From positions 4,154,001-4,218,000 of the forward strand of contig NZ_LT607412.1 in the NCBI RefSeq assembly GCF_900091455.1: a stretch of 64,000 nucleotides of DNA, written 5' to 3'. How positions within the stretch are numbered: the first letter of the stretch is position 1; the number at the start of each line of letters is the position of its first letter. A program made the translations under genes and the position numbers. The notes under the pieces are model-generated. The model did no database searches and was not told the origin of the DNA. It was given only the letters and a program-made list of their open reading frames with translations. Below, in pieces: positions 1 to 18,909 of the stretch. Origin of the DNA: Micromonospora coriariae (GTDB lineage: Bacteria; Actinomycetota; Actinomycetes; Mycobacteriales; Micromonosporaceae).

Positions 1-362
1 GGCACACCATGCTGCTCTACGCGCTGTCCGGCCTCTGCTGCGGCATCGCGGCCATCATGCTCACCTCCCAGGCCACCTCGGCCCAGGCGGCGATGGCCAA
101 CCTCTACGAGTTGGACGCGATCGCCGCCGCGATCATCGGCGGGACGCTGCTCAGCGGCGGCCGGGGCACGGTCGTCGGCTCGCTGCTCGGTGTGATCATC
201 TTCGCCACGATCACGAATCTCTTCGCCATCAACGGCCTCTCCATCGAGGCACAGAACATGGTCAAGGGCGGCATCATCGTCGTCGCCGTCCTGGTCCAGC
301 AGTTCCAGTTCAAGTCCTTCACTCGGCTCCTCGCGCGGAACAGGCTCACCACCACAACCTGA
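1..362 (+). CDS. Sugar ABC transporter permease, C-terminal part (RbsC family)
   Basis: The reading frame is already open at the window edge (codons from base 3), so this is the 3' end of a longer gene. The visible part has hydrophobic segments and the stretch LDAIAAAIIGGTLLSGGRGT, typical of the conserved cytoplasmic loop near the end of RbsC/AraH-type monosaccharide permeases (BPD_transp_2 family). These proteins form the membrane channel of class-2 monosaccharide importers and contact the ATPase. The next gene encodes a periplasmic-type binding protein of the same importer class, which supports the call. The ATPase gene is presumably upstream, outside the window. The substrate cannot be read from this fragment; ribose, allose, inositol or xylose are all possible. 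Confidence 0.85.
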   Translation, partial: HTMLLYALSGLCCGIAAIMLTSQATSAQAAMANLYELDAIAAAIIGGTLLSGGRGTVVGSLLGVIIFATITNLFAINGLSIEAQNMVKGGIIVVAVLVQQFQFKSFTRLLARNRLTTTT

Positions 363-458: not shown

Positions 459-1511
459 ATGACCCAGCACAGTCGCGACCTGTCGCGCCGTCGGTTGCTT
501 TTCGGTGGTGCCGCCGTCGGCGCCGCCACCCTGCTCACCGCCTGCACCAGTAACGAGACCCCGGCGGCCAGCACGCAGACCAAGGCCGCCGGCGACGGCG
601 CCGGCAACAACGCCCCGGGCAGGAAGGTCGTCATCGGCTTCTCCGCCCCCGCCGCCGACCACGGCTGGATGGGCGCGATCCACGCCAACGCCAAGGCGCA
701 GGCTGCCGCCTACTCCGACGTCGAGCTCAAGGAGGTCGACGGCGGGGCGAACTCGGAGGCGCAGCGCTCCACGCTCGGCACCTTGATCGCCCAGAAGCCG
801 GACATCATCGTGGTGCTGCCGCACGACGGCAAGGAGGTCAACGCGGTCGCCCTCCAGGCGATGCAGGCGGGCATCCCGATCGTCAACCTGGACCGGGTCT
901 TCCCCGACGCGCTGGCCTCACGGCTGGTCATCAAGGGCGACAACTACGGCATGGGCGTGTCCGCCGGGCACTTCATCGGCAAGCAGCTCAAGGACAAGGG
1001 CGTCGCCAACCCGGTCATCGGTGAGATCGCCGGCCTGGAGATCCCGCTGACGGTCGAGCGCAGCGCGGGCTTCGCGGCGGCCCTGGCCACCTACGGCTTC
1101 AAGGTGTCCAACCGCCGTTCGGCCGAGTTCACCTCGGACAGCGGCCAGCGTGAGGCGGCCCAGCTGCTCCAGGCGCTGCCGAAGATCGACGCGATCTGGA
1201 ACCACGACGACGACCAGGGCATCGGCGTGCTCGCCGCCATCAAGCAGGCCAACCGCTCCGAGTTCTTCATGGTCGGCGGCGCGGGCTCGAAGCTCGCGAT
1301 CGAGGCGATCAAGGCCGACAACAGCGTGCTCAAGGCGACGGTCACCTACAACCCGTCGATGGCCTCGTCGGCGATCTCGCTGGCCCGGCTCATCGCGCAG
1401 GGCCGGGGCCTGGGTGACCTCACCGAGCTGCAGGTGCCCAAGGAAGTGACCCTCGCCTCGGAGACGATCACCAAGGAGAACGCGAGCAGCTACGAGAAGC
1501 TCGGGTTCTGA
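459..1511 (+). CDS. Sugar ABC transporter substrate-binding lipoprotein
   Basis: A 350-residue protein of the Peripla_BP_4 (RbsB-like) family that would capture a sugar or cyclitol outside the membrane and deliver it to the permease encoded upstream. The chosen ATG follows an AGGAGG ribosome-binding site 8 bases away; an upstream in-frame start at 405 has none. The N-terminus carries a twin-arginine motif (SRRRLLFGG) and a lipobox LTAC, so it is probably Tat-exported and lipid-anchored. Two-lobe binding-protein features include IGFSAPAADHGWMGAI near the start and the INHD-like segment WNHDDDQG that often lines the sugar site. It is 97 bases from the permease gene, consistent with one operon. 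The ligand is not determined by sequence alone. Confidence 0.88.
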   Translation: MTQHSRDLSRRRLLFGGAAVGAATLLTACTSNETPAASTQTKAAGDGAGNNAPGRKVVIGFSAPAADHGWMGAIHANAKAQAAAYSDVELKEVDGGANSEAQRSTLGTLIAQKPDIIVVLPHDGKEVNAVALQAMQAGIPIVNLDRVFPDALASRLVIKGDNYGMGVSAGHFIGKQLKDKGVANPVIGEIAGLEIPLTVERSAGFAAALATYGFKVSNRRSAEFTSDSGQREAAQLLQALPKIDAIWNHDDDQGIGVLAAIKQANRSEFFMVGGAGSKLAIEAIKADNSVLKATVTYNPSMASSAISLARLIAQGRGLGDLTELQVPKEVTLASETITKENASSYEKLGF

Positions 1512-1531: not shown

Positions 1532-2758
1532 TTGTCCACGACAGACAAAGAACTGCGGGTCGGCATGGTCGGCTACGCGTTCATGGGCGCCGCGCACTCG
1601 CAGGCGTGGCGCACCGTGAACCGCGTGTACGACCTGCCGGCGCGGGCCCGGATGGCGCTGATCTGCGGCCGGGACACCGGAAAGGTGGCGGACGCCGCCG
1701 ACCGGCTCGGTTGGGACGCGTACACCACGGACTGGCGTGACCTGATCAGCCGGGACGACATCGACGTGGTCGACGTCTGCACCCCGGGCGACAGCCACGC
1801 CGAGATCGCCCTCGCCGCGTTGGCCGCCGGCAAGCACGTGCTGTGCGAGAAGCCGTTGGCCAACACGGTGGCCGAGGCGCGGGCGATGACCGCCGCGGCG
1901 GACACCGCCCGGGCAGCCGGGGTGCGGTCGATGTGCGGGTTCAACTACCGCCGGGTCCCCGCGGTCACGATGATGCGTCAGCTCGTCGCCGACGGACGAC
2001 TCGGAGTGATTCGACACGTCCGAGCGACGTACCTGCAGGACTGGATCGTGGACCCGCAGTTCCCGCTGGTGTGGCGGTTGCAGAAGGACAGGGCGGGCTC
2101 CGGCGCGCTCGGCGACATCGGCGCGCACATCATCGACCTGACCCAGTTCGTCACCGGCCAACGGATCACCGGCGTCAGCGCGGTCACCGAGACCTTCGTC
2201 AAGGAACGGCCGTTGCCGGCCGGGTCCAGCGGTTTGGCGGCCTCGGTGGACGGCAGTGGGTCGGCCGACGGCAACGCTGCGGTCACCGGTCCGGTCACCG
2301 TCGACGACGCCGCGGTCTTCGTGGCCCGGCTCGACGGTGGCGCGCTGGCCACGTACGAGGCGAGCCGGTTCGCCACCGGCCGCAAGAACGCCCTGCGCGT
2401 CGAGATCAACGGCTCGCTGGGCAGCGTGGTCTTCGACCTGGAACGCCTCAACGAGCTGGAGTTCTACGACGCCACCCGGCCCAGCGTGGAACAGGGTTTC
2501 AGCCGCATCCTGGTGACCGAGGGGGAGCACCCATACATGTCGGCGTGGTGGCCGCCCGGCCACATCATCGGCTACGAGCACTCCTTCACCCACCAGATGC
2601 GCGACTTCATCGAGGCGGTCGCCACCGGCGTCGACCCGGCTCCCTCCTTCGCCGACGCGTTGCAGGTCCAGCTCGTGCTGGACGCGGTGACCCGTTCGGC
2701 GGAGATCGGCTCCTCCTGGACCGAGGTGCAACCGGCGCTGGCCGCGGTGGCCGTCTGA
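1532..2758 (+). CDS. Gfo/Idh/MocA family NAD(P)-dependent oxidoreductase
   Basis: A 408-residue dehydrogenase with an N-terminal Rossmann fold (VGMVGYAFMGAAHS, a relaxed GxGxxG loop) and the family signature CEKPLA near residue 109, containing the catalytic lysine. The family interconverts hydroxyl and keto groups on sugars and cyclitols using NAD(P). The start is TTG, 15 bases or so after a GGGGGGAG Shine-Dalgarno; the downstream ATG at 1565 would remove the first beta strand, so TTG is preferred. It sits 20 bases after the sugar-binding protein, so it probably oxidises the imported substrate or a product. ThuB, inositol dehydrogenase (IolG) and 3-keto-sugar enzymes are all members, and the exact activity is not decidable here. 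Confidence 0.85.
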   Translation: MSTTDKELRVGMVGYAFMGAAHSQAWRTVNRVYDLPARARMALICGRDTGKVADAADRLGWDAYTTDWRDLISRDDIDVVDVCTPGDSHAEIALAALAAGKHVLCEKPLANTVAEARAMTAAADTARAAGVRSMCGFNYRRVPAVTMMRQLVADGRLGVIRHVRATYLQDWIVDPQFPLVWRLQKDRAGSGALGDIGAHIIDLTQFVTGQRITGVSAVTETFVKERPLPAGSSGLAASVDGSGSADGNAAVTGPVTVDDAAVFVARLDGGALATYEASRFATGRKNALRVEINGSLGSVVFDLERLNELEFYDATRPSVEQGFSRILVTEGEHPYMSAWWPPGHIIGYEHSFTHQMRDFIEAVATGVDPAPSFADALQVQLVLDAVTRSAEIGSSWTEVQPALAAVAV

Positions 2759-2778
2759 CCTCTGACCTCTGACCATCT

Positions 2779-3321: not shown

Positions 3322-3341
3322 AGGAATATTCTGATATTCCT
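3322..3341 (+). promoter_or_regulatory. Perfect inverted-repeat operator candidate of the ebo-like operon
   Basis: AGGAATAT-TCTG-ATATTCCT has perfect 8-bp arms around a 4-base spacer, in an AT-rich island (3311-3352) within roughly 72% GC DNA. It lies 46 bases upstream of the first gene of the operon. The symmetry and spacing fit the binding site of a dimeric repressor or activator. The following segment TATATTTAG could supply a -10 element. The regulator is not identified in the window. Confidence 0.6.
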
Positions 3342-3386
3342 ATATTTAGTTACACCGACGGTTCCTCCTGAACGGGAAGGAGCACC

Positions 3387-4553
3387 ATGCGAACGGGTGT
3401 CTGGTTGGTGGGGGCGCGCGGTTCCGTCGCGACCACCAGCATCGTCGGAGGGCTCGCGCTGCGGGCCGGCCTGGCCGGGCCGACCGGCTGCGTCACCGAG
3501 CTGCCGGAGCTGCGCGGTCCAGCCCTGCCGTCCTTCGCCGATCTGGTCTTCGGCGGGCACGACCTGGCCACCACCCCGCTGTGCAAGCGGGCCGAGGCAC
3601 TGGCCGACAGCGGTGTCATCCCCGGTCGGCTGGTCGCCGCGCTCCCGGACGAGCTGGCCGCCGTCGAGCAGGAGCTGCGTCCCGCGCCGGTCGGCGCCAC
3701 CCAGGCCGACCGGGCCGCCGCCGTGGTGAGCGACCTCACCGCCTTCCGCGAGCGGCACGCGCTGGACCGGGTGGTGGTCGTCAACGTCTCGGCCACCGAA
3801 CCGGCCCCCGCACCGCATCCCGGGCACGCCGATCCGGAGGCGCTGCGCGCCGCTCTCACCGGCCCCGACGAGGTGCTGCCGTCCAGCTCCCTGTACGCGT
3901 ACGCGGCGCTGCTGGCCGGCTGCCCGTACGTCGACTTCACCCCGTCCACCGGGCTGCGGCTGCCGGCGCTGACCGCGCTGGCCGAGCAGGCCCGGCTGCC
4001 GTACGCCGGGCACGACGGCAAGACCGGGGAGACGCTTGTCAAGTCGGTGCTCGCGCCGATGTTCGCGATGCGGAACCTGGCCGTGCGCTCCTGGTCCGGG
4101 GTCAACCTGCTCGGCGGCGGCGACGGCGCCACCCTCGCCGACCCGGCCGCCAACGCGGCCAAGGTGCGGAGCAAGCAGCGGGTGCTCGGCGAGACGCTGG
4201 GCTACCTGCCCCAGGGCGGCTCGCGGATCGAGTACGTCGAGGACCTGGGCGACTTCAAGACCGCCTGGGATCTGATCACCTTCGCCGGCTTCCTCGGCAC
4301 CGGCATGCGGATGGAGTTCACCTGGCACGGCTGCGACTCCGCGCTGGCCGCGCCGCTGGTGCTCGACCTGGCCCGGCTCACCGCCGCCGCGCACGCCGCC
4401 GGGCACGTCGGGCCGCTGTCCGAGCTGGGCTTCTTCTTCAAGGATCCGCTCGGCACACCGACCCACTCGCTGGCCGAGCAGTGGGCCCGGCTGGTCGACT
4501 TCACCCGCGAGTTGCACGCCGGCCGGGACGGTGCCGATGACCACGCTGGCTGA
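3387..4553 (+). CDS. myo-Inositol-1-phosphate synthase family protein, first gene of the ebo-like operon
   Basis: A 388-residue protein of the inositol-3-phosphate synthase family, which cyclises glucose-6-phosphate with bound NAD. Family marks are the N-terminal dinucleotide loop GARGSVATTSIVGG, the segment GHDGKTGETLVKSVLAPMF (conserved catalytic lysines) and NLLGGGDG. Length fits the short actinobacterial form. The ATG has a good GGAAGGAG site. The next gene starts 17 bases before its stop. In S. coelicolor I recall SCO3243 (inositol-phosphate synthase-like) beside SCO3242 (prenyltransferase), the same pairing. In classical ebo clusters the sugar-phosphate cyclase is EboD, a dehydroquinate-synthase relative; here this unrelated cyclase occupies that role in the gene set. 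It need not be the cell's housekeeping ino1. Confidence 0.85.
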   Translation: MRTGVWLVGARGSVATTSIVGGLALRAGLAGPTGCVTELPELRGPALPSFADLVFGGHDLATTPLCKRAEALADSGVIPGRLVAALPDELAAVEQELRPAPVGATQADRAAAVVSDLTAFRERHALDRVVVVNVSATEPAPAPHPGHADPEALRAALTGPDEVLPSSSLYAYAALLAGCPYVDFTPSTGLRLPALTALAEQARLPYAGHDGKTGETLVKSVLAPMFAMRNLAVRSWSGVNLLGGGDGATLADPAANAAKVRSKQRVLGETLGYLPQGGSRIEYVEDLGDFKTAWDLITFAGFLGTGMRMEFTWHGCDSALAAPLVLDLARLTAAAHAAGHVGPLSELGFFFKDPLGTPTHSLAEQWARLVDFTRELHAGRDGADDHAG

Positions 4554-5406
4554 CCTCGCCGAACTGGTCCGGGCGCCGGCCGCGCTCTCGGTCCCCGGCG
4601 ACGTGGTCGCCGGCGCGGCGGCGGCCGGCGCGCTGAACCGGCGTACCCCCGCCCTGGCCGGCGCCTCGGTGCTGCTCTACTGGGCCGGCATGGCCGCCAA
4701 CGATTGGGCCGACCGGCGGTTGGACGCCGTCGAACGGCCCGAGCGACCCATCCCCAGCGGTCGGGTCGCCCCGGCCGCCGCGGTCGGTCTCGCGGCCGGC
4801 CTCACCGCCGCCGGCCTCGGCCTGGCCGCCGCCGTGGGCGGTCGCCGTGCCGCGGCGCTCGCCGTGCCGCTGGCGGCCAGCATCTGGGGGTACGACCTGT
4901 TGGCCAAGAACACCGCCGCCGGGCCCGCCGTGATGGCCGCCTGTCGAGGGCTGGACGTGCTGCTCGGCGCGTCCGGCGGTCGGCTGACCCGGGCGCTGCC
5001 GGCGGCGGCGACCGTCGCCGCGCACACCTGGACGGTCACCGCGCTGTCCCGCCGCGAGGTCACCGGCGCCGACGCCGCCCTGCCGCTGCGCACGTTGGCC
5101 GGCACCGCCCTGGTCGCCGCCAGCGCCGCCGCACCCGACGGCCGGGCCCGATCGGTCGGCATCGTCGCCGCGCTGCCCGCGATACTGTCCGGCTGGTACG
5201 CCGCCCGCTACGGCGCGGCCCAGGCCCAGGTGGTCCGGGACCCGTCAGCCGGGCGGGTACGCGCCGCGGTCGGCGCCGGCATCACCGGACTGCCCGCCCT
5301 GCAGGGAGCGCTCACCGCGCGCGGCGGAGCCGGCCTGCTCGGGCTGGCCGTCGCCGCGGCGGCACCGCTGGGCCGGCGGCTGGCTCGGAAGGTCTCCCCG
5401 ACATGA
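4537..5406 (+). CDS. eboC: UbiA-type prenyltransferase (SCO3242 family, EboC-like)
   Basis: A 289-residue membrane protein of the UbiA superfamily, which moves a polyprenyl chain from its diphosphate to a polar acceptor. The first Asp-rich motif is visible as NDWADRRLDAVERPERPIP (NDxxDxxxD plus the ERP.RP.PSGR signature). The second is weak (GYDLLAKN) where many members have D-rich sequence. Multiple Ala/Leu-rich hydrophobic helices follow. I chose the ATG at 4537 rather than GTG at 4531; it overlaps the preceding gene by 17 bases, suggesting coupling. The cyclitol phosphate made by the preceding enzyme is a sensible acceptor and the prenyl synthase at the operon's end a sensible donor source. 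That is inference from context. Confidence 0.85.
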   Translation: MTTLADLAELVRAPAALSVPGDVVAGAAAAGALNRRTPALAGASVLLYWAGMAANDWADRRLDAVERPERPIPSGRVAPAAAVGLAAGLTAAGLGLAAAVGGRRAAALAVPLAASIWGYDLLAKNTAAGPAVMAACRGLDVLLGASGGRLTRALPAAATVAAHTWTVTALSRREVTGADAALPLRTLAGTALVAASAAAPDGRARSVGIVAALPAILSGWYAARYGAAQAQVVRDPSAGRVRAAVGAGITGLPALQGALTARGGAGLLGLAVAAAAPLGRRLARKVSPT

Positions 5407-6422
5407 CCGCCCCCCAGCCGCGCACCGCACCGCCGGCCGCCGACGCACGGACGCTGCGCCTCGGGTACGGCACAAACGGCTTCGCCAACCACCGGCTCGA
5501 CGACGCGCTCGCCGTCCTCGCCGACCTCGGCTACGTCGGTGTGGCGCTGACGCTCGACCACGACCACCTCGACCCGTTCGCTCCCGGTCTCACCCGCCGG
5601 GTCGCGGCGGTGGGCCGGCGACTGAGCGCGCTGGGCCTCTCGGTGGTGATCGAGACCGGAGCCCGCTACCTGCTCGACCCGTGGCACAAGCACGCACCGA
5701 CGCTGCTGCACGACGACCCGACCCGGCGGGTCGAGTTCCTGCGCCGGGCCGTCCGGGTCGGTGCCGACCTGGGTGCGGAGGCGGTCTCCTTCTGGGCCGG
5801 CGTCCGGCCCGACGCGGTGCCGGCGCAGACCGCCTGGGACCGGTTGGTGGCCGGCTGCGCCACAGTGGTCGACGCCGCCGACGCGGCCGGTGTCACCCTC
5901 GGCTTCGAACCGGAGCCGGGGATGCTGGTCGAGGACATCGCCGGCTGGCGTCGGTTGCGCGCGGCGCTCGGTGAGCCGCGCCGCTTCGGCATCACGCTCG
6001 ACATCGGGCACTGCCGCTGCCTGGAGCCGTGGCCGGTGCCGCAGTGCGTCGCCGAGGTGGCCGGGCACCTGGTCAACGTGCAGATCGACGACATGCGCCG
6101 GGGCGTGCACGAGCACCTGGAGTTCGGTGCCGGCGAGATCGACTTCCCGCCGGTGCTGGCGGCCCTGGCGCAGGCCGGCTACCGCGGGTTGGTCGCCGTC
6201 GAGCTGCCCCGGGACTCGCACGCCGCGCCCGCCGTGGCCGCCCGGTCGATCGAGTTCCTGCGCGCCGCCGCCGCGACGGCGGCGGCCCGGAGCACCACCG
6301 CGATCACGACGGCGACTGGCCGGCGTAGCGAGGACGAGGTGCCCGCGGGCGCCCTTTGCTCTGCTTCAACGGACGCGACAGCGGCCGTCCGATATCCGGA
6401 CAGTGGCCGTCGCGTGGAGTGA
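5403..6422 (+). CDS. Sugar phosphate isomerase/epimerase (AP endonuclease-2-like TIM barrel)
   Basis: A 339-residue xylose-isomerase-like TIM barrel. Metal-ligand-type segments appear in the usual order: FEPEPGMLVED, TLDIGHCRCLE, NVQIDDM and VAVELPRDSH. The ATG overlaps the previous stop (ATGA). The barrel ends near residue 285. The last ~45 residues, low-complexity and Ala/Thr-rich then unlike any fold, are encoded partly by the large inverted repeat at 6347-6441, and the stop codon lies inside its right arm. I infer that the repeat landed at the 3' end and supplied a new tail and stop. The reaction is unknown; the family includes epimerases and isomerases of phosphorylated or keto sugars. 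Confidence 0.8.
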   Translation: MTAPQPRTAPPAADARTLRLGYGTNGFANHRLDDALAVLADLGYVGVALTLDHDHLDPFAPGLTRRVAAVGRRLSALGLSVVIETGARYLLDPWHKHAPTLLHDDPTRRVEFLRRAVRVGADLGAEAVSFWAGVRPDAVPAQTAWDRLVAGCATVVDAADAAGVTLGFEPEPGMLVEDIAGWRRLRAALGEPRRFGITLDIGHCRCLEPWPVPQCVAEVAGHLVNVQIDDMRRGVHEHLEFGAGEIDFPPVLAALAQAGYRGLVAVELPRDSHAAPAVAARSIEFLRAAAATAAARSTTAITTATGRRSEDEVPAGALCSASTDATAAVRYPDSGRRVE

Positions 6423-6441
6423 AGCAGAGCAGTGGGCGCCC
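6347..6441. repeat. Long compound inverted repeat inside the ebo-like operon
   Basis: The outer arms are GGGCGCCC (6347-6354 and 6434-6441), then TGCTCTGCTTCA (6357-6368) pairing with TGAAGCAGAGCA (6420-6431). Nested inside are ACGCGAC (6373-6379) with GTCGCGT (6409-6415), and GTCCG (6387-6391) with CGGAC (6397-6401). The whole could fold into one interrupted hairpin of about 95 bases. It has the look of a dispersed REP-type palindrome. It spans the end of the isomerase gene and stops 37 bases before eboA. Confidence 0.75.
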
Positions 6442-6478
6442 CTGGGGTGCCTCGCAGCAGCACGAGGGAGGAGACGGG

Positions 6479-7117
6479 ATGACACCGGATTCACTACGGG
6501 CCGCACTGCGGGGCGTACCTGATCCCGACTGGCTGGACACGGCGCTGCGCCGGGTCGAGGCCGAGCCCGGCGCGATCACCCGGCTCTTCCCGGCCGCCGG
6601 CCGGCGCTGCGGCCGGGCCGCACTGCCCGACGCACCCGGCTGGACGGCCGACGACGCCGCCCGGGTGCTGTTGCTCACCGCCCTGCCCGCTGACCACGCC
6701 CAGCTCGCCGACACGCTCTACCGGCACGGCGACGCGGCCGAGCGGCGGGCGGTCCTGCGTGCCCTGCCGCTGCTGCCGATCGGGGCCGTCGGGGTGCCGC
6801 TGCTGCACGACGCGATCCGGACCAACGACACCCGGCTGGTCGCCGCCGCTCTCGGCCCGTACGCGCGGCATCTCGACCCGGCGGCCTGGCGGCAGGCGGT
6901 GCTCAAGTGCGTGTTCTCCGGCGTGCCGCTGGCCGTGGTGGCCGACCTGGACGCCCGCGCCGACGGTGAGCTGGCCGCGATGCTGGCCGCGCTGGCCGCC
7001 GAACGGCACGCCGCCGGCCGGGAGTTGCCCGCCGACGCCACCGACCTGCTCGACCGGCTCACCGCGCACAGCGGAGGGACCGGCCCCGTCGACCGTCCCA
7101 CCCCCACGGAGGCGTGA
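6479..7117 (+). CDS. eboA: EboA domain-containing protein
   Basis: A 212-residue soluble, Ala/Leu-rich, probably all-helical protein. It matches what I know of the EboA family: a helical repeat region (ARVLLLTALP, RRAVLRALPLLP) and, in the second half, the segment TNDTRLVAAALGPYARHLD followed by WRQAVLKCVFSGVPL, which is the most characteristic stretch. EboA is essential for the cyanobacterial export pathway of scytonemin precursors, but its biochemical role is unknown. The ATG follows GGGAGGAGA at good spacing; an earlier in-frame ATG at 6356 falls in the inverted repeat and is rejected. Its stop overlaps the next ATG (TGATG). Confidence 0.88.
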   Translation: MTPDSLRAALRGVPDPDWLDTALRRVEAEPGAITRLFPAAGRRCGRAALPDAPGWTADDAARVLLLTALPADHAQLADTLYRHGDAAERRAVLRALPLLPIGAVGVPLLHDAIRTNDTRLVAAALGPYARHLDPAAWRQAVLKCVFSGVPLAVVADLDARADGELAAMLAALAAERHAAGRELPADATDLLDRLTAHSGGTGPVDRPTPTEA

Positions 7118-7971
7118 TGCGCATCTTCGACCCGCACATCCACATGACCTCACGCACCACTGACGACTACGAACGGATGGCCGCCGCCGGCGTCCGGGCG
7201 GTGGTGGAGCCGGCGTTCTGGCTGGGCCAGCCCCGCACCAGCGCCGCCTCGTTCGCCGACTACTTCGACTCCCTGATCGGCTGGGAGCCGTTCCGCGCCG
7301 GGCAGTTCGGGGTGCGGCACCACGCCACCGTGGCGCTGAACCCCAAGGAGGCGAACGATCCGCGCTGCCGGCCGGTGCTCGACCTGCTGCCGCGCTACCT
7401 GGACAAGGACGCGGTCGTCGCGGTCGGCGAGATCGGCTACGACTCGATGACCCCGGAGGAGGACGACGCGTTCGCCGCGCAGCTCGCGCTGGCCGTGGCG
7501 TACGACCTGCCGGCGCTGGTGCACACCCCGCACCGGGACAAGGCCCGGGGCGTCGAGCGCACCCTCGCCGTGGTCACCGAGTCCGGCATCGACCCGGGCC
7601 GGGTGGTGGTCGACCACCTGAACGAGGTGACCGTCAAGCTGGTCCGGGACACCGGCTGCTGGCTGGGGTTCTCCATCTATCCGGACACCAAGATGTCACC
7701 GCCACGCATGGTCGAGCTGCTGCGGGAGTACGGAACGGAACGGATGCTGGTCAACTCGGCCGCCGACTGGGGACGCTCGGACCCACTGCTGACCAGGGCC
7801 ACCGGCGAGGCGATGCTGCTGGCCGGGTTCACCGACGACGACGTCGACCGGGTGCTGTGGCGCAACCCGGTGCAGTTCTACGGGCAGTCCGGCCGGCTCG
7901 ACCTGACCGACCTGGGCGTGGCCGCCGTGGACCCGGGGACCGGCAACTCGATCCTGCGCGGCGGCAGCTGA
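7117..7971 (+). CDS. eboB: TatD-family metal-dependent hydrolase (EboB)
   Basis: A 284-residue amidohydrolase-fold protein. Metal-binding positions fit TatD: DPHIHM at residues 5-10 (HxH), VGEIGYD (bridging Glu), LVHTPH, VDHLNE, and NSAADWG near residue 210 carrying the last Asp. TatD proteins hydrolyse phosphodiester or other bonds; the EboB group acts in metabolite export clusters with no defined reaction. The ATG overlaps the eboA stop and its own stop overlaps the eboE ATG (TGATG), so all three are almost certainly translated together. GTG at 7114 is an alternative start. Confidence 0.9.
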   Translation: MRIFDPHIHMTSRTTDDYERMAAAGVRAVVEPAFWLGQPRTSAASFADYFDSLIGWEPFRAGQFGVRHHATVALNPKEANDPRCRPVLDLLPRYLDKDAVVAVGEIGYDSMTPEEDDAFAAQLALAVAYDLPALVHTPHRDKARGVERTLAVVTESGIDPGRVVVDHLNEVTVKLVRDTGCWLGFSIYPDTKMSPPRMVELLREYGTERMLVNSAADWGRSDPLLTRATGEAMLLAGFTDDDVDRVLWRNPVQFYGQSGRLDLTDLGVAAVDPGTGNSILRGGS

Positions 7972-9173
7972 TGCGGCTGCGGCACGCCGGCGGCGACACC
8001 GTCCACCTCGGCTACTGCACCAATGTGCACCCCGCCGAGGATCTCGCCGGCATCCTCGCCCAACTGGACACCTACGCCGTGCCGGTCCGCGCGGCGCTCG
8101 GCTCCGACCTGCTCGGCCTCGGCCTGTGGCTGGCCGCCCCGGTCGCCGCCGAGCTGGCCGCCGACCCGGCGCTGCGCCGCCGGCTGCGCGCCGAACTGGA
8201 CGCGCGCGGGCTGGAGGTGGTCACCCTCAACGGCTTCCCGTACGCGGCCTTCCAGGCGCCGGTGGTCAAGCACGACGTCTACCGGCCGGACTGGACGACC
8301 GAGCAGCGCCTGACGTACACCCTGGACCTGGCCCGGGTGCTCGCGGACCTGCTGCCCGACGACGCCGCCCGGGGTTCGATCTCCACCCTGCCGCTGGCCT
8401 GGCGGCGGCCCTGGGACGACGAGCGGGCCGACGCCGCCCGCCGCCGGCTCGACCAGCTCGCCGCCGGCCTGGCCGGGGTGCAACGGGACACCGGCCGCCA
8501 GGTGCGGGTCGGCTTCGAACCCGAGCCGGGCTGCGTGGTGGAGAGCACCGGTCAGGCCGCCGCACTGCTGTCCGGCGTGGACACCGAACGGTTGGGCGTC
8601 TGCCTCGACCTGGCCCACCTCGCCTGCGCCTGGGAGGAGCCGGCCACGGCGCTGGCCCGGCTGGAGAGCGCCGGCCTGCCGGTGGTCAAGGTGCAGGTCT
8701 CCGCCGCCGTCGAGGCGACCGACCCGGCCGGTGGCGCCGACGCGCTGCGCCGCTGGGTGGAGCCACGCTTCCTGCACCAGACCCGGGGCGCGGGCTGCGC
8801 CGGCGGAACCGACCCGGCCGACCCGGCGTACGCGGCCGACGATCTGGACGCGGCGCTCGACGCGGCGCTGCCCGGCCCGTGGCGGGTGCACTACCACGTG
8901 CCCCTGCACGCCCCACCCGAGGAACCGCTCGGCTCCACCCTGCCGGTGCTGCGCGCCGCGCTGGCCGCGCTCTACGCCGGCCCCGCCGCCGGCTGTGACC
9001 ACCTCGACGTGGAGACGTACACCTGGGGGGTGCTGCCCGCCGCACGGCGGCCCGGCAGCGACGCGGAGCTGGCCGCCGGCATCGCCGCCGAGCTGGCCTT
9101 CGCCCGCGCCGAGCTGGTCGGTCTGGGTCTGACTCCGGAGCTGACCAGGGCCGGGGCGGTGGTGTCGCGATGA
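7971..9173 (+). CDS. eboE: Metabolite traffic protein EboE
   Basis: A 400-residue TIM barrel of the EboE family. The opening LGYCTNVHPAEDLAGILAQL, the segment VVTLNGFPYAAFQ and KHDVYRPDW are highly characteristic of EboE. Later metal-ligand-like segments are GFEPEPGCVVEST, CLDLAHLACAWE and VKVQVSAAVE, parallel to those in the isomerase two genes upstream, suggesting a shared fold and perhaps related chemistry on one metabolite. The final domain (HVPLHAPP, VETYTWGVLP) is also typical. Start and stop overlap both neighbours (TGATG, ATGA). In cyanobacteria and Pseudomonas the family is required for moving a metabolite to the cell envelope; its reaction is not known. Confidence 0.92.
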   Translation: MRLRHAGGDTVHLGYCTNVHPAEDLAGILAQLDTYAVPVRAALGSDLLGLGLWLAAPVAAELAADPALRRRLRAELDARGLEVVTLNGFPYAAFQAPVVKHDVYRPDWTTEQRLTYTLDLARVLADLLPDDAARGSISTLPLAWRRPWDDERADAARRRLDQLAAGLAGVQRDTGRQVRVGFEPEPGCVVESTGQAAALLSGVDTERLGVCLDLAHLACAWEEPATALARLESAGLPVVKVQVSAAVEATDPAGGADALRRWVEPRFLHQTRGAGCAGGTDPADPAYAADDLDAALDAALPGPWRVHYHVPLHAPPEEPLGSTLPVLRAALAALYAGPAAGCDHLDVETYTWGVLPAARRPGSDAELAAGIAAELAFARAELVGLGLTPELTRAGAVVSR

Positions 9174-10594
9174 GCCGGCGACTGGTGGTGCTCGACGTGG
9201 TCGGGTTGACCCCGCGACTGCTGGCGCACATGCCCCGGCTGCGGGGGGTCGCCGACGGGGGCTTCCGGGCCGAGCTGGGCACCGTGCTGCCCGCGGTGAC
9301 CTGCTCGGTGCAGTCCACCTTCCTCACCGGCGAGCCGCCGAGCGGGCACGGGATCGTCGGCAACGGGTGGTATTTCCGGGAGCTGGGTGAGGTGCTGCTG
9401 TGGCGGCAGCACAACGCGCTGGTCGGCGGGGAGAAGCTCTGGCAGGCGGCCCGGCGGGCCGAGCCCGGCTACACCGTCGCCAACGTCTGCTGGTGGTACG
9501 CGATGGGCGCCGACGTCGACTGGACGGTGACCCCGCGCCCCGTGTACCACGCCGACGGTCGCAAGGAGCCGGACTGCTACACCGACCCGCCGGAGCTGCA
9601 CGACGCGCTCACCGGGCGGCTGGGCACCTTCCCGCTGTTCACCTACTGGGGGCCGACCGCCGGGCTGCCCTCGTCGCGGTGGATCTGCCAGGCGGCGGAG
9701 CAGATCCTGGCCGACGTGTCGCCCGACCTGACCCTGGTCTACGTTCCGCACCTGGACTACGACCTGCAACGGTACGGCCCGTCCTCCCCGCAGGCCGCTG
9801 CCGCGGCGGCGGAGCTGGACACGGTGCTCGGGCCGCTCCTGGACGCCGCCCGGGCCCGCGACGCGACAGTCGTGGTGCTCTCCGAGTACGGCATCACCGA
9901 CGTGTCCCGACCGGTGGACGTCAATCGGCTGCTGCGCGCCGAGGGGCTGCTGCGGGTGCACACCCAGGCGGGCATGGAGTACCTCGACCCGTGGACGTCC
10001 CGGGCGTTCGCGGTCGCCGACCACCAGGTCGCGCACGTCTACGTACGGGACCCGGCCGACGTTCCGACTGTGGCGAAGCTCTGCGCCGGGTTGCCCGGAG
10101 TCGCCGAGGTGCTCGACGCCGAGGGCAAGGCCGCGCACGGGCTGGATCATCCACGCGCCGGTGAGCTGGTGCTGGTGGCCGAGCCGGACGCCTGGTTCAC
10201 GTACTACTACTGGCTGGACGACGCCCGCGCGCCGGACTTCGCCCGCCTGGTGGAGATTCATCGGAAGCCGGGATACGACCCCGCCGAGCTGTTCTTCGAC
10301 CCGGCCGCGCCGGGGGCGGCGAAGCGTCGGGCGGGCATCGCGCTGGCCCGCAAGAAGCTGGGCATGCGCTACCTGATGAGCGCGGTCGGCCTGGACGCCG
10401 GAGCCCGGGCGGTACGCGGCTCACACGGCCGGTTGCCGACCGACCCGGCGGACGCCCCGGTGCTGCTCTGCTCCGACCCGGCCGCGGCCCGGGAGCGGAT
10501 CGCAGCCACCGAGGTCAAGGAGCTGCTGCTGGAGCTGGCCGGGCTGACCCGGGGCGGCGGCGCCGACGCGGACGGGCCGGGGGAGGATTCATGA
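9170..10594 (+). CDS. eboF: Type I phosphodiesterase / nucleotide pyrophosphatase family (EboF-like)
   Basis: A 474-residue alkaline-phosphatase-superfamily protein. The metal-binding Asp is at LDVVG and the nucleophile Thr in LPAVTCSVQSTFLTGEPPSG, followed by HGIVGNGWY. Later sites are YVPHLDYDLQRYGP, VVLSEYGITD (in place of the usual SDHG) and HQVAHVY. These enzymes cleave phosphate mono- or diesters, often outside the membrane; no signal peptide is evident, so it probably acts in the cytoplasm. A nucleotide-pyrophosphatase-like gene accompanies the ebo genes in other phyla (EboF), which supports the role assignment. It overlaps eboE by four bases and the prenyl synthase by four. It could dephosphorylate the prenylated cyclitol phosphate. 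Confidence 0.85.
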   Translation: MSRRLVVLDVVGLTPRLLAHMPRLRGVADGGFRAELGTVLPAVTCSVQSTFLTGEPPSGHGIVGNGWYFRELGEVLLWRQHNALVGGEKLWQAARRAEPGYTVANVCWWYAMGADVDWTVTPRPVYHADGRKEPDCYTDPPELHDALTGRLGTFPLFTYWGPTAGLPSSRWICQAAEQILADVSPDLTLVYVPHLDYDLQRYGPSSPQAAAAAAELDTVLGPLLDAARARDATVVVLSEYGITDVSRPVDVNRLLRAEGLLRVHTQAGMEYLDPWTSRAFAVADHQVAHVYVRDPADVPTVAKLCAGLPGVAEVLDAEGKAAHGLDHPRAGELVLVAEPDAWFTYYYWLDDARAPDFARLVEIHRKPGYDPAELFFDPAAPGAAKRRAGIALARKKLGMRYLMSAVGLDAGARAVRGSHGRLPTDPADAPVLLCSDPAAARERIAATEVKELLLELAGLTRGGGADADGPGEDS

Positions 10595-11658
10595 CCGTCA
10601 CGGTCGCGCCCGCCGACGCGAGTGGCCTACGGGCGCGCTTCGACGCGGAGCTGGCCGGTTTCCTGGACCGGCAGGGCCCGGACTGGCCGGACGGCGCGCC
10701 ACGCGGCGTGTTCACCGCGTTGTACCGGTTCGTGCTGGCCGGCGGGAAACGGCTGCGCCCGCTCTTCTGCTACTGGGGCTGGCGCGGCGCCGGGGCGCCC
10801 GACGGCACCCCGATCGTGGTGGCCTCGGCGGCACTGGAGCTGTTCCACGCGTTCGCGTTGATCCACGACGACATCCTGGACGGCAGCGACCGCCGCCGGG
10901 GCGAGCCGTCGGTGCACCGGCTCTTCGCCGACCTGCACGCCCGCTCGTCCTGGCGCGGCGACCCCGAGGCGTACGGACGCAACACGGCGCTGCTCTGCGG
11001 AGATCTCTGCGCGGCCTGGTCGGACCAGATGTTCCACGAGTGCGGCCTGAGCACCGAGCAGGTGCACCGGGGGTACGGGGTGTTCGCGTTGATGCGTACC
11101 GAGGTGATCGCCGGTGAGTACCTGGACCTGGTGTCCGGGGTTGGCGACGGCTCGGTGGCCAGCGCGCTCACCGTGATCCGGATGAAGGCCGCCCGGTACA
11201 CGGTGACCCGGCCACTGCAGATCGGCGCGGCTCTGGCCGGCGCGGGGCCGGAGCTGATCGCCGCGCTGGGCGAGTTCGGTGACCCGCTCGGTGACGCGTT
11301 CCAGCTCCGCGACGACGTGCTGGGCGTCTTCGGTGACCCGGCGGTCACCGGCAAGTCGGTTCTGGACGACCTGCGGGAGGGCAAGCCGACGGTGATGATG
11401 GCGCTCGCCCGCAGCGCCGCCGACCGGCCGCAGACCGCCCGGCTGCGGGAGCTGTTCGGCAATCCGGCGCTGGACGCCGACGGCGCGGCGGAGCTGCGCG
11501 GGATCATCGAGGCGACCGGGGCCCGGGAGCGCATCGAGCAGATGATCCGGGTCCGGACCGAGGCCGCGCTGGCCGCGCTGGAGAGCGCGGCGGTGGCCGA
11601 GGAGGCCCGCGCCGCGCTTGTCGCGTTGGCCGCGCAGGCGATAGACCGCCGCGCCTGA
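10591..11658 (+). CDS. Polyprenyl diphosphate synthase (last gene of the ebo-like operon)
   Basis: A 355-residue trans-isoprenyl diphosphate synthase. Motifs in order are GGKRLRP (residues ~50), the first Asp-rich motif HDDILDGSDRRRG (DDxxD), KAARYT, and the second Asp-rich motif FQLRDDVLGVFGD, then GKPT. It condenses isopentenyl diphosphate with an allylic primer to give a chain (C15-C40; length is not readable by eye). The ATG overlaps the phosphodiesterase stop (ATGA). Its presence in the operon fits a dedicated donor supply for the UbiA-type transferase. The classical six-gene ebo cluster has no such gene, making this an extension of the set. Confidence 0.9.
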   Translation: MTVTVAPADASGLRARFDAELAGFLDRQGPDWPDGAPRGVFTALYRFVLAGGKRLRPLFCYWGWRGAGAPDGTPIVVASAALELFHAFALIHDDILDGSDRRRGEPSVHRLFADLHARSSWRGDPEAYGRNTALLCGDLCAAWSDQMFHECGLSTEQVHRGYGVFALMRTEVIAGEYLDLVSGVGDGSVASALTVIRMKAARYTVTRPLQIGAALAGAGPELIAALGEFGDPLGDAFQLRDDVLGVFGDPAVTGKSVLDDLREGKPTVMMALARSAADRPQTARLRELFGNPALDADGAAELRGIIEATGARERIEQMIRVRTEAALAALESAAVAEEARAALVALAAQAIDRRA

Positions 11659-11668
11659 TCCGCCTGCC

Positions 11669-11695
11669 GACTTTCGATCGGATCGACGAAAGTTC
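11669..11695 (+). promoter_or_regulatory. Operator candidate GACTTTC-N11-CGAAAGTTC
   Basis: The inverted repeat ACTTTCG/CGAAAGT (perfect 7-bp arms, 10-base spacer, 11670-11693) lies within GACTTTC-N11-CGAAAGTTC. An almost identical arrangement with a 12-base spacer lies upstream of the ThuA-dehydrogenase gene that starts at 24032. The site is about 190 bases upstream of the sugar dehydrogenase start codon and just after the prenyl synthase stop. Confidence 0.55.
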
Positions 11696-11725
11696 ACGGC
11701 GATCAACCGGAAGGTATAGACACAT

Positions 11726-11883: not shown

Positions 11884-14760
11884 ATGTCCATAAAGGACGT
11901 ACCCAATCACCGGTCCCGACGATGGTTCTCCGCCGGATCGGCACTGCTCCTGGTGGCCGCGGCCGGCACGGTCGCGCTCGGCGTCGGCCCGGCCGCGCTC
12001 GGTGGCCCGACCCCCGCACAGGCCCACCCCATCAACGCCACGGACTTTCAGCAGGTCGAGCTGGCCCGCGGCGTGGCCGACATGGGTGAGCCGATGTCGC
12101 TGGCCGTGCTGCCGGACCGCTCGGTCCTGCACACCGCCCGCAACGGCACGCTGCGCCGCACCGACGCCAACGGCACCACCTCGGTGATCGGCACCCTGCC
12201 GGTCTACACCCACGACGAGGAGGGCCTGCAGGGCGTCGGGGTCGACCCCAACTTCGCCAGCAACCGGCAGATCTTCCTCTACTACGCCCCGCCGCTCTCC
12301 ACCCCCGGCGGCGACGCGCCCGCCACCGGCACCGACTTCTCGGCCTGGCAGGGCGTCAACCGGCTCTCCCGGTTCACCCTCAACGCCGACTTCACAATCA
12401 ACCAGGCCAGCAAGGTCGACGTGCTCGACGTGCCGGCCGATCGCGGGCTGTGCTGCCACGTCGGCGGGGACATCGACTTCGACGCCGCCGGCAACCTGTA
12501 CCTGTCCACCGGCGACGACACCAACCCGTTCGACTCGGCCGGATACGCGCCGCTGGACGAGCGGACCAACCGCAACCCGGGATACGACGCGCAGCGCAGC
12601 GCCGGCAACACCAACGACCTGCGCGGCAAGATCCTGCGGATCAAGGTGAACGCGAACGGCACGTACGCCATCCCGGCGGGCAACCTGTTCGCGCCCGGCA
12701 CGGCCAGGACCCGGCCGGAGATCTACGCGATGGGCTTCCGCAACCCGTTCCGGATCAGCGTGGACAAGGCCACCGGCGTCGTCTACGTCGGTGACTACGG
12801 GCCGGACGCCGGCTCCACCAGCGCCACCCGTGGGCCGTCCGGCCAGGTGGAGTTCAACCGGGTCGCCGCGCCGGGCAACTACGGCTGGCCGTACTGCACC
12901 GGCACCAACACCAGCACCGAGACCTACAACGAGTGGGACTTCGCCACAAACACCGGCGGGGCGAAGTACAACTGCACCGGTGGGCCGACCAACAACTCGT
13001 TCCGCAACAGTGGCCTGGGCACCCTGCCGGCGGCCAAGCCGGCCTGGATCCGGTACGCCGGCGACGCCGGCACCCCGCCCGAGTTCGGTGGCGGCTCCGA
13101 GTCACCGATGGGCGGCCCGGTCTACCGGTACAACGCCTCGTCCACCTCGACCACGAAGTTCCCGCAGTCGTTCGACGGGCAGTTCTTCGCCACCGAGTTC
13201 GGCCGCGGCTGGATCAAGCCGATCCACGTCAACGCCGACGGCTCCCGGGGCACCATCGACAGCTTCCCCTGGGTGGGCAAGCAGGTGATGGACTCGGCGT
13301 TCGGCCCGGACGGCGCGTACTACGTGCTCGACTACGGCACCGGCTACTTCAACGGTGACGCCAACTCCGCGCTCTACCGCTTCGACTACGTCGGCGGCGG
13401 CAACCGGGCGCCCAACGCCTCGGCCAGCGCGAACCGGACCTCGGGCGCGGCGCCGCTGGCGGTCACGTTCTCCTCGGCCGGCTCCTCGGACCCGGAGGGC
13501 GGCGCGCTGACGTACTCGTGGAACTTCGGTGACGGCACCAGCTCCACGGCGGCCAACCCGTCCAAGACCTACACCACCAACGGCACCTACACGGCGACGC
13601 TGACCGTGCGGGACCCGCAGGGCGCCACCGGCACCGCCAGCGTGGTGATCAACGTGGGCAACACCGCGCCCACGGTGACGATCAACAACCCGGGCAACGG
13701 GCAGCTGTTCAGCTTCGGCGACACGGTGCCGTTCAGCATCACCGTGACCGACCCGGAGGACGGCACGATCGACTGCACGAAGGTCAGGATGACCTACGTC
13801 CTCGGGCACGACCAGCACGGTCACCAGATCACCTCGAAGACCGGCTGCTCCGGATCGATCACCATTCCGGTCGACGGTGAGCACGACGACGCCGCGAACA
13901 TCTTCGCCATCTTCGACGCCGAGTACACCGACGCCGGTGGGCTGACCACGCACACCCAGCACACGCTGCCGCCGCGGCACCGGCAGGCCGAGTTCTTCGG
14001 CACCTCGTCCGGGATCAACGTGTTCAACAAGACCCCGGCCGAGGGTGGCAAGACCGTCGGCGACATCAACAACGGCGACTGGATCGCGTTCCAGCCGTAC
14101 CGGTTGGGCAACGTGACGTCGTTCAGCGCCCGGGTCTCCTCGGCCGGTGCCGGCGGCACGCTCCAGGTCCGGGCCGGCTCGGCCACCGGCACGGTGCTCG
14201 GTTCGGCCACTGTGCCGGTCACCGGAGGCTGGGAGACCTTCACCACGGTGACGGGGGCGATCACCAACCCGCCGACCGGAACCACGACGCTCTACCTGAC
14301 CTTCGCCGGGTCGGGCACCGGCGCGCTCTACGACCTGGACGCCTTCACCTTCGTCACGGGCACGCCGCCAACCGGCGGGGCCGGCCCGATCAAGGGCCTG
14401 GCCGGCAAGTGCCTGGACGTGCGCAACGCGGCCACCGCCGACGGCACGCAGATCCAGATCTACACCTGCAACGGCACTACGGCGCAGACCTGGACGGTCA
14501 CGCCGAACTCGACGATCAGGGCGTTGGGTAAGTGCCTCGACGTCTCGGGCGGCGGTTCGGCCGACGGCACCAAGATCCAGCTCTGGACCTGCAACGGGAC
14601 CGGTGCGCAGAACTGGGCAGCGCAGGCCGACGGCACGGTCCGCAACGTCCAGTCCGGCAAGTGCCTCGACGTCTCCGGCAACAACTCCGCCGACAGCACG
14701 GCGGTCCACCTCTGGACCTGTGTCGGCGGCGCTGCCAACCAAAAGTGGATCCTGCCCTGA
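11884..14760 (+). CDS. Secreted PQQ-type sugar dehydrogenase with PKD, CBM6-like and ricin-lectin domains
   Basis: A 958-residue exported protein. Residues 1-48 form a signal peptide with twin arginines (RSRRWF) ending PAQA-HP. Residues ~55-500 are a glucose/sorbosone-dehydrogenase beta propeller: LCCHVGGDIDFD, NTNDLRGKILRI, RPEIYAMGFRNPFRI and FGPDGAYYVLDYGTG are typical. A PKD domain (~505-590, YSWNFGDG), an unnamed segment (~595-700), a CBM6-like domain (~705-825) and a ricin B-lectin with three QxW-type repeats (~833-958) follow. It presumably oxidises a sugar on a polysaccharide outside the cell with PQQ. ATG at 11884 follows AGGAAGGGAC; the earlier frame start at 11743 lies within the promoter palindromes. 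The next gene (ThuA-DUF1080) likely works with it. Confidence 0.88.
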   Translation: MSIKDVPNHRSRRWFSAGSALLLVAAAGTVALGVGPAALGGPTPAQAHPINATDFQQVELARGVADMGEPMSLAVLPDRSVLHTARNGTLRRTDANGTTSVIGTLPVYTHDEEGLQGVGVDPNFASNRQIFLYYAPPLSTPGGDAPATGTDFSAWQGVNRLSRFTLNADFTINQASKVDVLDVPADRGLCCHVGGDIDFDAAGNLYLSTGDDTNPFDSAGYAPLDERTNRNPGYDAQRSAGNTNDLRGKILRIKVNANGTYAIPAGNLFAPGTARTRPEIYAMGFRNPFRISVDKATGVVYVGDYGPDAGSTSATRGPSGQVEFNRVAAPGNYGWPYCTGTNTSTETYNEWDFATNTGGAKYNCTGGPTNNSFRNSGLGTLPAAKPAWIRYAGDAGTPPEFGGGSESPMGGPVYRYNASSTSTTKFPQSFDGQFFATEFGRGWIKPIHVNADGSRGTIDSFPWVGKQVMDSAFGPDGAYYVLDYGTGYFNGDANSALYRFDYVGGGNRAPNASASANRTSGAAPLAVTFSSAGSSDPEGGALTYSWNFGDGTSSTAANPSKTYTTNGTYTATLTVRDPQGATGTASVVINVGNTAPTVTINNPGNGQLFSFGDTVPFSITVTDPEDGTIDCTKVRMTYVLGHDQHGHQITSKTGCSGSITIPVDGEHDDAANIFAIFDAEYTDAGGLTTHTQHTLPPRHRQAEFFGTSSGINVFNKTPAEGGKTVGDINNGDWIAFQPYRLGNVTSFSARVSSAGAGGTLQVRAGSATGTVLGSATVPVTGGWETFTTVTGAITNPPTGTTTLYLTFAGSGTGALYDLDAFTFVTGTPPTGGAGPIKGLAGKCLDVRNAATADGTQIQIYTCNGTTAQTWTVTPNSTIRALGKCLDVSGGGSADGTKIQLWTCNGTGAQNWAAQADGTVRNVQSGKCLDVSGNNSADSTAVHLWTCVGGAANQKWILP

Positions 14761-14766
14761 GCTGAA

Positions 14767-17683: not shown

Positions 17684-17901
17684 CGATCCGGCGGCGGGGC
17701 TTTCGCGATGGGGCCCGGCGGAAATAGGGTGGGGCCGGCGACCGTGACGGTGGCCGGTGACCCGGTGGGAGGCGCAACCCGCCGGGCCCAGGTGCGTTCC
17801 GCACCCACCGGTGTCCCGTCCCGGTGCCGCGTACCGCTCTGACCGGTCACCCTCGCCCCGGTCCGCACACGGAATCCCCATCACAACAGGGGAGAAGGAC
17901 A

Positions 17902-18909
17902 ATGGCGCGACCCATCACGCTCTTCACCGGCCAGTGGGCCGACCTGCCGTTCGAGGAGGTCTGCCGGCTCGCCTCCGAGTGGGGCTACGACGGTCTGGAG
18001 ATCGCCTGCTGGGGCGACCACTTCGAGGTCGACAAGGCGCTCGCCGACGACTCGTACGTCGATCGCAAGCGGGAGACGCTCGCGAAGCACAACCTCGAGG
18101 TCTTCACGATCTCCAACCACCTCGTCGGTCAGGCGGTCTGCGACCACCCGATCGACGAGCGGCACCAGGACATCCTGCCCGGCCGGATCTGGGGTGACGG
18201 GGAGCCCGAGGGCGTCCGCCAGCGGGCCGCCGAGGAGATCAAGGACACCGCACGGGCGGCGGCGAAGCTCGGGGTGAAGACGGTCGTCGGCTTCACCGGC
18301 TCGTCGATCTGGCACACCCTGGCGATGTTCCCGCCGGTGCCGCCGGCGATGATCGAGCGCGGCTACCAGGACTTCGCCGACCGGTGGAACCCGATCCTCG
18401 ACGTGTTCGACGAGGTGGGGGTGCGCTTCGCGCACGAGGTGCACCCCAGCGAGATCGCGTACGACTACTGGACGACCAAGCGCACGCTGGAGGCGATCGG
18501 CAACCGGCCCGCGTTCGGGTTGAACTGGGACCCGTCGCACTTCGTCTGGCAGGAACTGGACCCGGTGAACTTCATCTTCGACTTCGCCGACCGGATCTAC
18601 CACGTGGACTGCAAGGACGCCAAGGTGCGTACCGGGGACGGTCGGCGCGGCCGGCTCGCCTCCCACCTGCCCTGGGCGGACCTGCGCCGCGGCTGGGACT
18701 TCGTCTCCACCGGGCACGGGGACGTGCCCTGGGAGGACTGCTTCCGGGCGTTGAACGCCATCGGCTACGCCGGGCCCATCTCGATCGAGTGGGAGGACGC
18801 CGGGATGGACCGGCTGGTCGGCGCACCCGAGGCGTTGCAGTTCGTCCGCCGGCTCGCCTTCGACGCCCCGTCCGCCGCCTTCGACGCGGCCTTCAGCAGC
18901 AAGGACTGA
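17902..18909 (+). CDS. Sugar phosphate isomerase/epimerase (xylose-isomerase-like TIM barrel)
   Basis: A 335-residue cytoplasmic TIM barrel. The opening [20 protein letters not shown] and metal-ligand segments [32 protein letters not shown] and [10 protein letters not shown] are those of the IolE/IolI-like family. The ATG follows GGGGAGAAGGAC at proper spacing; the frame is open further upstream but has no better start. The gene stands alone, closed by a hairpin terminator and convergent to a ROK regulator pseudogene. Members act on inosose, hydroxypyruvate, or 3-keto-sugar derivatives. With ThuA/DUF1080 and dehydrogenase genes on either side, a role in keto-sugar use is reasonable but unproved. 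Confidence 0.85.

Follow-up and report, generated by a model that had tools for sequence, protein, structure and literature searches.

A MIPS-type variant of the ebo cluster in Micromonospora coriariae and its candidate prenylated cyclitol product

Which ring does an ebo-type gene cluster build when a cyclase of another family stands in the place of EboD? The question is raised by an operon in a stretch of 64,000 nucleotides from Micromonospora coriariae (contig NZ_LT607412.1, positions 4,154,001 to 4,218,000), hereafter the window. The source genome comprises 6.93 Mb on one contig. The operon consists of eight genes on the + strand, 3387-11658, the first of which encodes a member of the inositol-3-phosphate synthase (MIPS) family. 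The explanation favoured here, with moderate confidence, is that the operon represents a MIPS-type form of the ebo cluster and produces a prenylated cyclitol lipid whose inositol-type ring comes from MIPS instead of EboD.

A MIPS-family cyclase in the place of EboD

The operon comprised the following genes, given with their profile scores in bits:

3387..4553, + strand: MIPS-family cyclase (inositol-3-phosphate synthase) in EboD's place; PF07994 168.5, PF01658 100.3
4537..5406, + strand: UbiA-superfamily prenyltransferase of the SCO3242 family, EboC-like; PF01040 58.5, NF045897 375.3 (cut-off 260)
5403..6422, + strand: xylose-isomerase-like TIM-barrel enzyme (TIM); PF01261 123.2
6479..7117, + strand: EboA-domain protein; NF035938 159 (cut-off 50)
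7117..7971, + strand: EboB, TatD-like metal-dependent hydrolase; PF01026 46.5
7971..9173, + strand: EboE, TIM-barrel protein; NF035939 413.9 (cut-off 250)
9170..10594, + strand: EboF, NPP-fold protein with an altered metal site; PF01663 218.9
10591..11658, + strand: polyprenyl diphosphate synthase, optional member; PF00348 152.5

Six of the seven junctions overlapped by 1-17 bases. The overlap was 17 bases for MIPS/UbiA (23 if UbiA starts at GTG 4531), four bases each for UbiA/TIM, EboE/EboF and EboF/synthase, and one base each for EboA/EboB and EboB/EboE. The sole non-overlapping junction measured 56 bases, from the TIM stop to the EboA ATG at 6479. A purine-rich stretch resembling a ribosome-binding site preceded this ATG, and an alternative in-frame GTG at 6419 would give a 4-base overlap. 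The family profile matches and the six overlaps confirmed the eight-gene ebo-type operon described in an earlier note on this DNA.

The set searched for EboD and MIPS contained 158 loci (136 + 13 + 9). With seven EboD proteins of annotated plasmid clusters as queries, none of 149 and none of another 20 actinobacterial loci matched, and the canonical EboC model exceeded its cut-off in none of 396 Actinomycetota genomes. Eight annotated plasmid ebo clusters of other phyla, from Deinococcus (two), Azospirillum, Roseivivax, Salipiger, Mycetohabitans, Ketogulonicigenium and Aureibacter, carried an annotated '3-dehydroquinate synthase' and no annotated MIPS. MIPS and EboD were mutually exclusive in the loci examined. 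MIPS stands where the clusters of other phyla have EboD, in line with the earlier proposal of an ebo-type operon with a different cyclase. An ebo cluster of the actinobacterium Saccharomonospora has been described (PMC9235831); its locus lies outside the comparison set, and a rare EboD-type actinobacterium is conceivable. Two EboD-type clusters from different phyla, L216 (2-4112, Mycetohabitans) and L246 (859-3919, Aureibacter), had genes for a hypothetical and a ferritin-like protein directly upstream.

The source genome encoded three PF01658 proteins, which ruled out the operon MIPS as its sole ino1. The operon MIPS was 27% identical to the Ino1-type protein of the same genome, and the median identity of operon copies to ino1 was 28%. 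In the tree, 41 operon MIPS copies lay on one side of a 100/100 branch, opposite 30 ino1 proteins and the third homologue of the genome. The separate clade, the three PF01658 genes and the rigid neighbourhood spoke for a MIPS distinct from housekeeping ino1, the point for which the earlier note had proposed a gene tree. The third PF01658 protein (G000:C1:653793-654089, L182, outside the window) scored 65.1 bits, had an open frame of 317 amino acids and about 27% identity to the operon MIPS, and formed a very long branch.

The closest solved relative was the MIPS of Archaeoglobus fulgidus (PDB 1u1i, 239.4 bits). Seven positions that we take to be catalytic, D210, N240, D246, K259, K263, K291 and K352, were invariant in 148 of 148 operon copies; they correspond, with a constant offset of 15, to A. 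fulgidus D225, N255, D261, K274, K278, K306 and K367. Residue counts throughout exclude MIPS sequences of at most 330 residues (one of 149) and fragments of other proteins under fixed minimum lengths. In the alignment, PDB chains 3qvw and 3qvx differed from 1u1i at two of the seven positions. Because all seven are kept, the operon MIPS looks enzymatically active, judged from its sequence. Unlike the archaeal gene, the window gene sits in a prenyltransferase operon, with a separate Ino1-type gene elsewhere. The MIPS relative PDB 6k96 is named five-membered-cyclitol-phosphate synthase and hence has a different ring product. The intact active site would also suit an extra inositol supply for phospholipids or mycothiol. 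This role is, however, very improbable: the genome holds another Ino1-type gene, and the operon MIPS belongs to a separate clade and is surrounded by ebo genes in almost all loci.

The canonical ebo cluster, eboA-F (PMC5133447, PMC6282210), has an EboA-domain protein, EboB, EboE, EboF and a UbiA prenyltransferase in common with the operon. The operon differs in lacking EboD, in containing MIPS and an extra TIM barrel, and in a UbiA protein below the EboC cut-off. Because two defining canonical features fail, namely EboD and the EboC cut-off, the operon is classed on sequence grounds as a variant of the ebo cluster and not as a canonical member. The pair SCO3242/SCO3243 of Streptomyces coelicolor consists of a transferase and a myo-inositol phosphate synthase with adjacent gene numbers (PMC3610822), and the window UbiA scored above the cut-off of the SCO3242 family. 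Transcriptome papers list both as genes of the calcium-dependent antibiotic cluster (PMC3610822, PMC3897704), and the accessible part of PMC3610822 does not mention ebo. S. coelicolor has a separate gene, SCO3899, for its housekeeping inositol synthase (PMC7581861). The SCO3242 family, EboA and EboE are already represented by named NCBI models; in the open-licence PMC literature, neither a MIPS-type nor a haloarchaeal ebo cluster was found described.

Conservation and spread of the gene order

Gene order was compared in 136 actinobacterial loci selected by UbiA, a set of 56 from the same family and a set of 80 named loci, with species shared between both sets. Synteny counts exclude L001-L015, which were short pieces or superseded by longer stretches. 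The seven-gene core order MIPS-UbiA-TIM-EboA-EboB-EboE-EboF was kept in 133 of the 136. The exceptions were L026 at a contig end, the broken-up locus L032 and L115, which was without EboA and EboB. Selection by EboE gave two further sets. The EboE model exceeded its cut-off in 13 of 296 Actinomycetota genomes, including the source genome and one congener. The other 12 genomes that had a match supplied thirteen loci, one of them with a score below the cut-off; eleven had the core order, and the exceptions were L169 without MIPS and L180, which was degraded and below the cut-off. Within the order, EboE was over the cut-off in 81 of 298 genomes. Twenty loci were taken from 45 EboE matches in other families of the order, and 16 had the core order; L240 showed no detectable MIPS, and three loci had just an EboE-like protein (33-42%). 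The synteny of eboA and eboE with MIPS across Actinobacteria, for which the earlier note had proposed a search, was rigid. The recurrence of the seven-gene order across loci argues for an operon more than for a chance arrangement.

L169, a second ebo copy in genome G228, held the full set from UbiA to EboF without MIPS, near genes for a flavin adenine dinucleotide-dependent oxidoreductase and a cytochrome P450. It is perhaps a version with another ring donor. A ROK-family regulator gene flanked the operon in L177 (6405-7778) of a distant actinobacterium. In the source genome, L221 (4406-5584, upstream of the transporter genes) contained a gene start resembling this regulator, judged by the start alone.

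An exact 7-4-7 inverted repeat, GGAATAT/ATATTCC, was located at 3323-3340 in the AT-rich leader, 64 bases 5' of the MIPS start. It was rejected as a conserved operator; 14 of 149 upstream regions had a copy with at most three mismatches, and these regions belonged almost entirely to one sequence type and only to near relatives. A scan of 2700-17800 detected no sigma-70-type promoters and four terminator-like sites against 2.9 expected.

The MIPS-type cluster was also present outside Actinobacteria. Plasmid 2 of Gemmatirosa (L213) carried MIPS (45%), TIM, EboB, EboE, EboF and UbiA, and EboA was not found there. Plasmids of the haloarchaea Halobaculum, Natronococcus and Halocatena carried MIPS, an EboF homologue, TatD, UbiA and two TIM genes. 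The MIPS of the haloarchaeal clusters was about 45% identical to the window MIPS and 29-30% to the ino1 of the source genome, and fell on the operon side of the 100/100 branch. The haloarchaeal TIM proteins tested matched TIM better than EboE, and EboA was not annotated in the haloarchaeal stretches. Haladaptatus (L248) had the cluster set, with no MIPS in the fetched stretch. The haloarchaeal clusters represent a rearranged core with some genes missing. The genome of Haloferax volcanii gave matches to the MIPS, EboE, ThuA and EboC models, those to EboE and EboC being below cut-off. The description of the operon as an actinobacterial type thus held in that it recurs across many actinobacteria, but it is too narrow given Gemmatirosa and the haloarchaea.

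Prenyl transfer and the other core enzymes

The window UbiA scored 375.3 with the SCO3242-family model NF045897, above the cut-off of 260. It scored 128.7 with the EboC model NF035940, below the cut-off of 250, and 46.9 with the DGGGP synthase model NF009521, far under the cut-off of 296. In fold comparisons of its AlphaFold2 model (predicted local distance difference test score 91.4), the Z scores for DGGGP synthase (PDB 6m31, 7bpu) and Aeropyrum pernix UbiA were tied. The Asp-rich prenyl-diphosphate motif was present in 151 of 151 actinobacterial proteins, and D140, H163 and S171 were found in 148, 150 and 150 of them. The earlier note had named a lack of residues for a polar acceptor as grounds against its reading; UbiA keeps the motif and several conserved polar residues, which may line the acceptor pocket. 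D22 was an Asp in 149 of 151 MIPS-type proteins (two gaps) and in four haloarchaeal ones, and an Asn in seven EboD-type proteins. It was rejected as a marker of the cyclase type, as the EboD-type EboC of Aureibacter also has the Asp.

An aromatic or quinoline acceptor for UbiA has to be considered here, with MIPS and the TIM enzymes building a separate sugar or cyclitol part. In vitro, EboC homologues of Maribacter, Zobellia and Algoriphagus transfer a farnesyl group to 8-hydroxyquinoline-2-carboxylic acid (PMC9235831), and the fold match to A. pernix UbiA equals that to DGGGP synthase. However, the core contains no enzyme for an aromatic acceptor, the window UbiA belongs to a sister family, and the actinobacterial proteins typically carry D140, H163 and S171. 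We regard an aromatic acceptor as improbable.

Downstream of the 133 core-order loci, the polyprenyl synthase was present in 97, absent in 35 and inverted in one. Its Asp-rich motifs were well preserved (D93, D94 and D97 in 101 of 102, D241 and D242 in 100 of 102, the remainder being gaps), and no profile model for product chain length exceeded its cut-off. In the 80-locus set it lay on the operon strand in 57 of 66 Micromonosporaceae loci versus 0 of 14 others, and it was rejected as a core member. The synthase joined the operon in Micromonosporaceae and is an optional addition. The operon's 'own' synthase of the earlier note is indeed encoded in the window, but as a part of the system it is weakened by its absence from the operon strand in the 14 loci outside this family. 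L168 and L235 had weakly similar polyprenyl synthases (38%) upstream of MIPS, a hint of separate recruitment.

TIM was seen solely in MIPS-type clusters among the loci compared. Its residues E171, D200, H203, H238 and E267 were invariant in 150 of 150 proteins, and the TatD-type positions H7, H9, E105, H136, H167 and D217 of EboB were kept in 156 of 156; both groups presumably act as ligands. EboB was 41-57% and EboF 49-57% identical to their counterparts in seven EboD-type clusters. The window EboA passed the domain model NF035938 and scored 77 with the narrower family model NF035937, under the cut-off of 320. TIM and EboA shared a single reading frame in 23 of 147 loci, and likewise in each of seven inspected individually, which matches fused proteins noted in PMC5133447.

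EboF has the NPP fold and was compared with PDB 5veo, 7mw8 and 3t02 of the NPP/phosphonoacetate hydrolase family. In 157 of 157 proteins, three of the seven metal and nucleophile positions were kept and four were changed (D to V11, H to Q200, D to E239 and H to Y240); we take these seven residues to be the ligand set of two-zinc NPP phosphodiesterases. Because of the four changes, zinc-type phosphate removal by EboF is unlikely. EboF was rejected as an ordinary zinc phosphatase, and the phosphate-removing phosphodiesterase of the earlier note was not borne out. The altered site puts the phosphodiesterase label in doubt for the compared EboF proteins of both cluster types.

Sugar-oxidation neighbours and the candidate product

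The earlier note was incomplete in overlooking sugar-oxidation genes linked to the operon; GSDH, ThuA and transport genes recur near it. The linked genes of the window were:

3..362, + strand: sugar ATP-binding cassette (ABC) transporter permease, 3' part; PF02653; the remainder and an ATPase gene lie upstream (L221)
459..1511, + strand: ribose-type sugar-binding protein; PF13407 122.5
1532..2758, + strand: Gfo/Idh/MocA dehydrogenase, nearest to levoglucosan dehydrogenase; PF01408, NF052479 363.6 (below the cut-off of 650)
11884..14760, + strand: GSDH-type sugar dehydrogenase with PKD, CBM6 and lectin domains; PF07995 112.8
14836..16953, + strand: ThuA with a 3-keto-disaccharide hydrolase domain; PF06283 268.6, PF06439 134.6
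17899..18909, + strand: second TIM-barrel protein (TIM2), weakly IolE-like; PF01261 153.8, TIGR04379 43.3 (below cut-off)

A GSDH, ThuA or ScyD/E gene occurred in 37 of 56, 61 of 80, 7 of 13 and 13 of 20 stretches of the four actinobacterial sets, in two of four haloarchaeal stretches and in none of eight EboD-type stretches. ThuA was found in 24 of 56 family stretches versus about 2% expected (287 copies in 260 Mb of 30 operon-bearing genomes), a figure to be taken as an excess and not as a probability, the loci being related. The flank genes recurred in several orders, and 20 of 80 loci showed none of those sought. In several loci of other families, a GSDH or ThuA gene ended shortly 5' of MIPS and TIM2 overlapped the end of EboF. 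The haloarchaeal neighbours were a pyrroloquinoline quinone-dependent sugar dehydrogenase (L249), ThuA (L250), and Gfo/Idh and DUF1080 genes (L248). The whole neighbourhood might be an island for sugar or cyclitol use, the core serving catabolism and MIPS and UbiA playing a subsidiary part. The recurrence of the flank genes, the sugar ABC transporter and Gfo/Idh genes upstream in the window and the overlap of TIM2 with EboF point in this direction. Yet the core also occurs without flank genes, the EboD-type stretches have none of them, and a membrane prenyltransferase fits no known route of sugar degradation. Such an island is a little less probable than the aromatic acceptor.

Two further regions of the window lie beyond these genes. 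At 19538-24032, on the - strand and facing the operon, another TIM-barrel gene and a gene for a 1109-residue ThuA-GSDH protein form a second set of sugar-oxidation domains. The region 25267-28624, flanked by tRNA-Asn (25020) and tRNA-Met (28766), encodes an MMPL-family membrane protein and, after it, an amine-oxidase-type flavoprotein.

In four Streptomycetaceae loci, a ScyD/ScyE-family gene was located directly upstream of MIPS, which recalls the scytonemin link of PMC6282210. In L251 (5020-25365, Streptomyces sp. NBC_00019), a ScyD/ScyE-family gene and the operon were followed by genes for a multicopper oxidase, an aromatic prenyltransferase and a type III polyketide synthase. The Ebo proteins could mainly form an export machine, in which a prenylated carrier or membrane complex moves a cytoplasmic metabolite out to secreted enzymes. 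Each Nostoc ebo mutant retains the scytonemin monomer in the cytoplasm (PMC6282210), and the four Streptomycetaceae loci would fit. Against export as the main function, enzyme active-site residues are kept in EboB, TIM and MIPS, and the core contains no transporter. This alternative, which is compatible with a lipid product, is unlikely, though less so than the aromatic acceptor.

The favoured prenylated cyclitol lipid has precedents. For ebo clusters, a product combining isoprenoid and cyclitol has been suggested before (PMC5133447). BE-40644 of Actinoplanes likewise combines a cyclitol from a sugar-phosphate cyclase with a prenyl chain attached by a UbiA-superfamily enzyme; its ring derives from sedoheptulose 7-phosphate via an EboD-like cyclase, unlike the MIPS here (PMC5133447). 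MIPS, probably with the TIM enzyme, is predicted to take the ring-forming role of EboD. Beyond the gene content, we infer the following chemistry. MIPS would convert glucose 6-phosphate to inositol 3-phosphate or a close relative, and the TIM enzymes (TIM and EboE) and EboB would remodel the ring. UbiA would join a prenyl chain, from the optional or a housekeeping synthase, to the polar acceptor, perhaps by an ether linkage in the manner of archaeal DGGGP synthase. EboF may bind a phosphorylated intermediate or work without the usual two zinc ions, and EboA may hold the enzymes together. The lipid would have its function in the cell envelope, which would also be the site of action of the linked sugar dehydrogenase and 3-keto-sugar enzymes. 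The strongest doubts about this explanation are the aromatic acceptors of the tested EboC enzymes (PMC9235831), the export phenotype in Nostoc (PMC6282210) and the odd metal site of EboF.

A wider and improbable generalisation is that ebo clusters of both kinds, bacterial and archaeal alike, produce a redox or carrier lipid that is prenylated and derived from a cyclitol. It would be a new class of membrane cofactor for exported propeller-type oxidoreductases (GSDH, ScyE) and 3-keto-sugar enzymes. Either EboD or the unrelated MIPS, the latter together with a TIM partner, would form its ring, and EboF would be an NPP-fold enzyme that works without zinc and by new chemistry.

The ebo cluster is widespread, and the accessible parts of the literature identify no product for it. 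The chemistry of MIPS is well understood, and the MIPS-type variant offers a concrete substrate to test. The recurring linkage to GSDH, ThuA and 3-keto-sugar hydrolase genes, in actinobacteria and some haloarchaea, is a hint at the purpose of the product.

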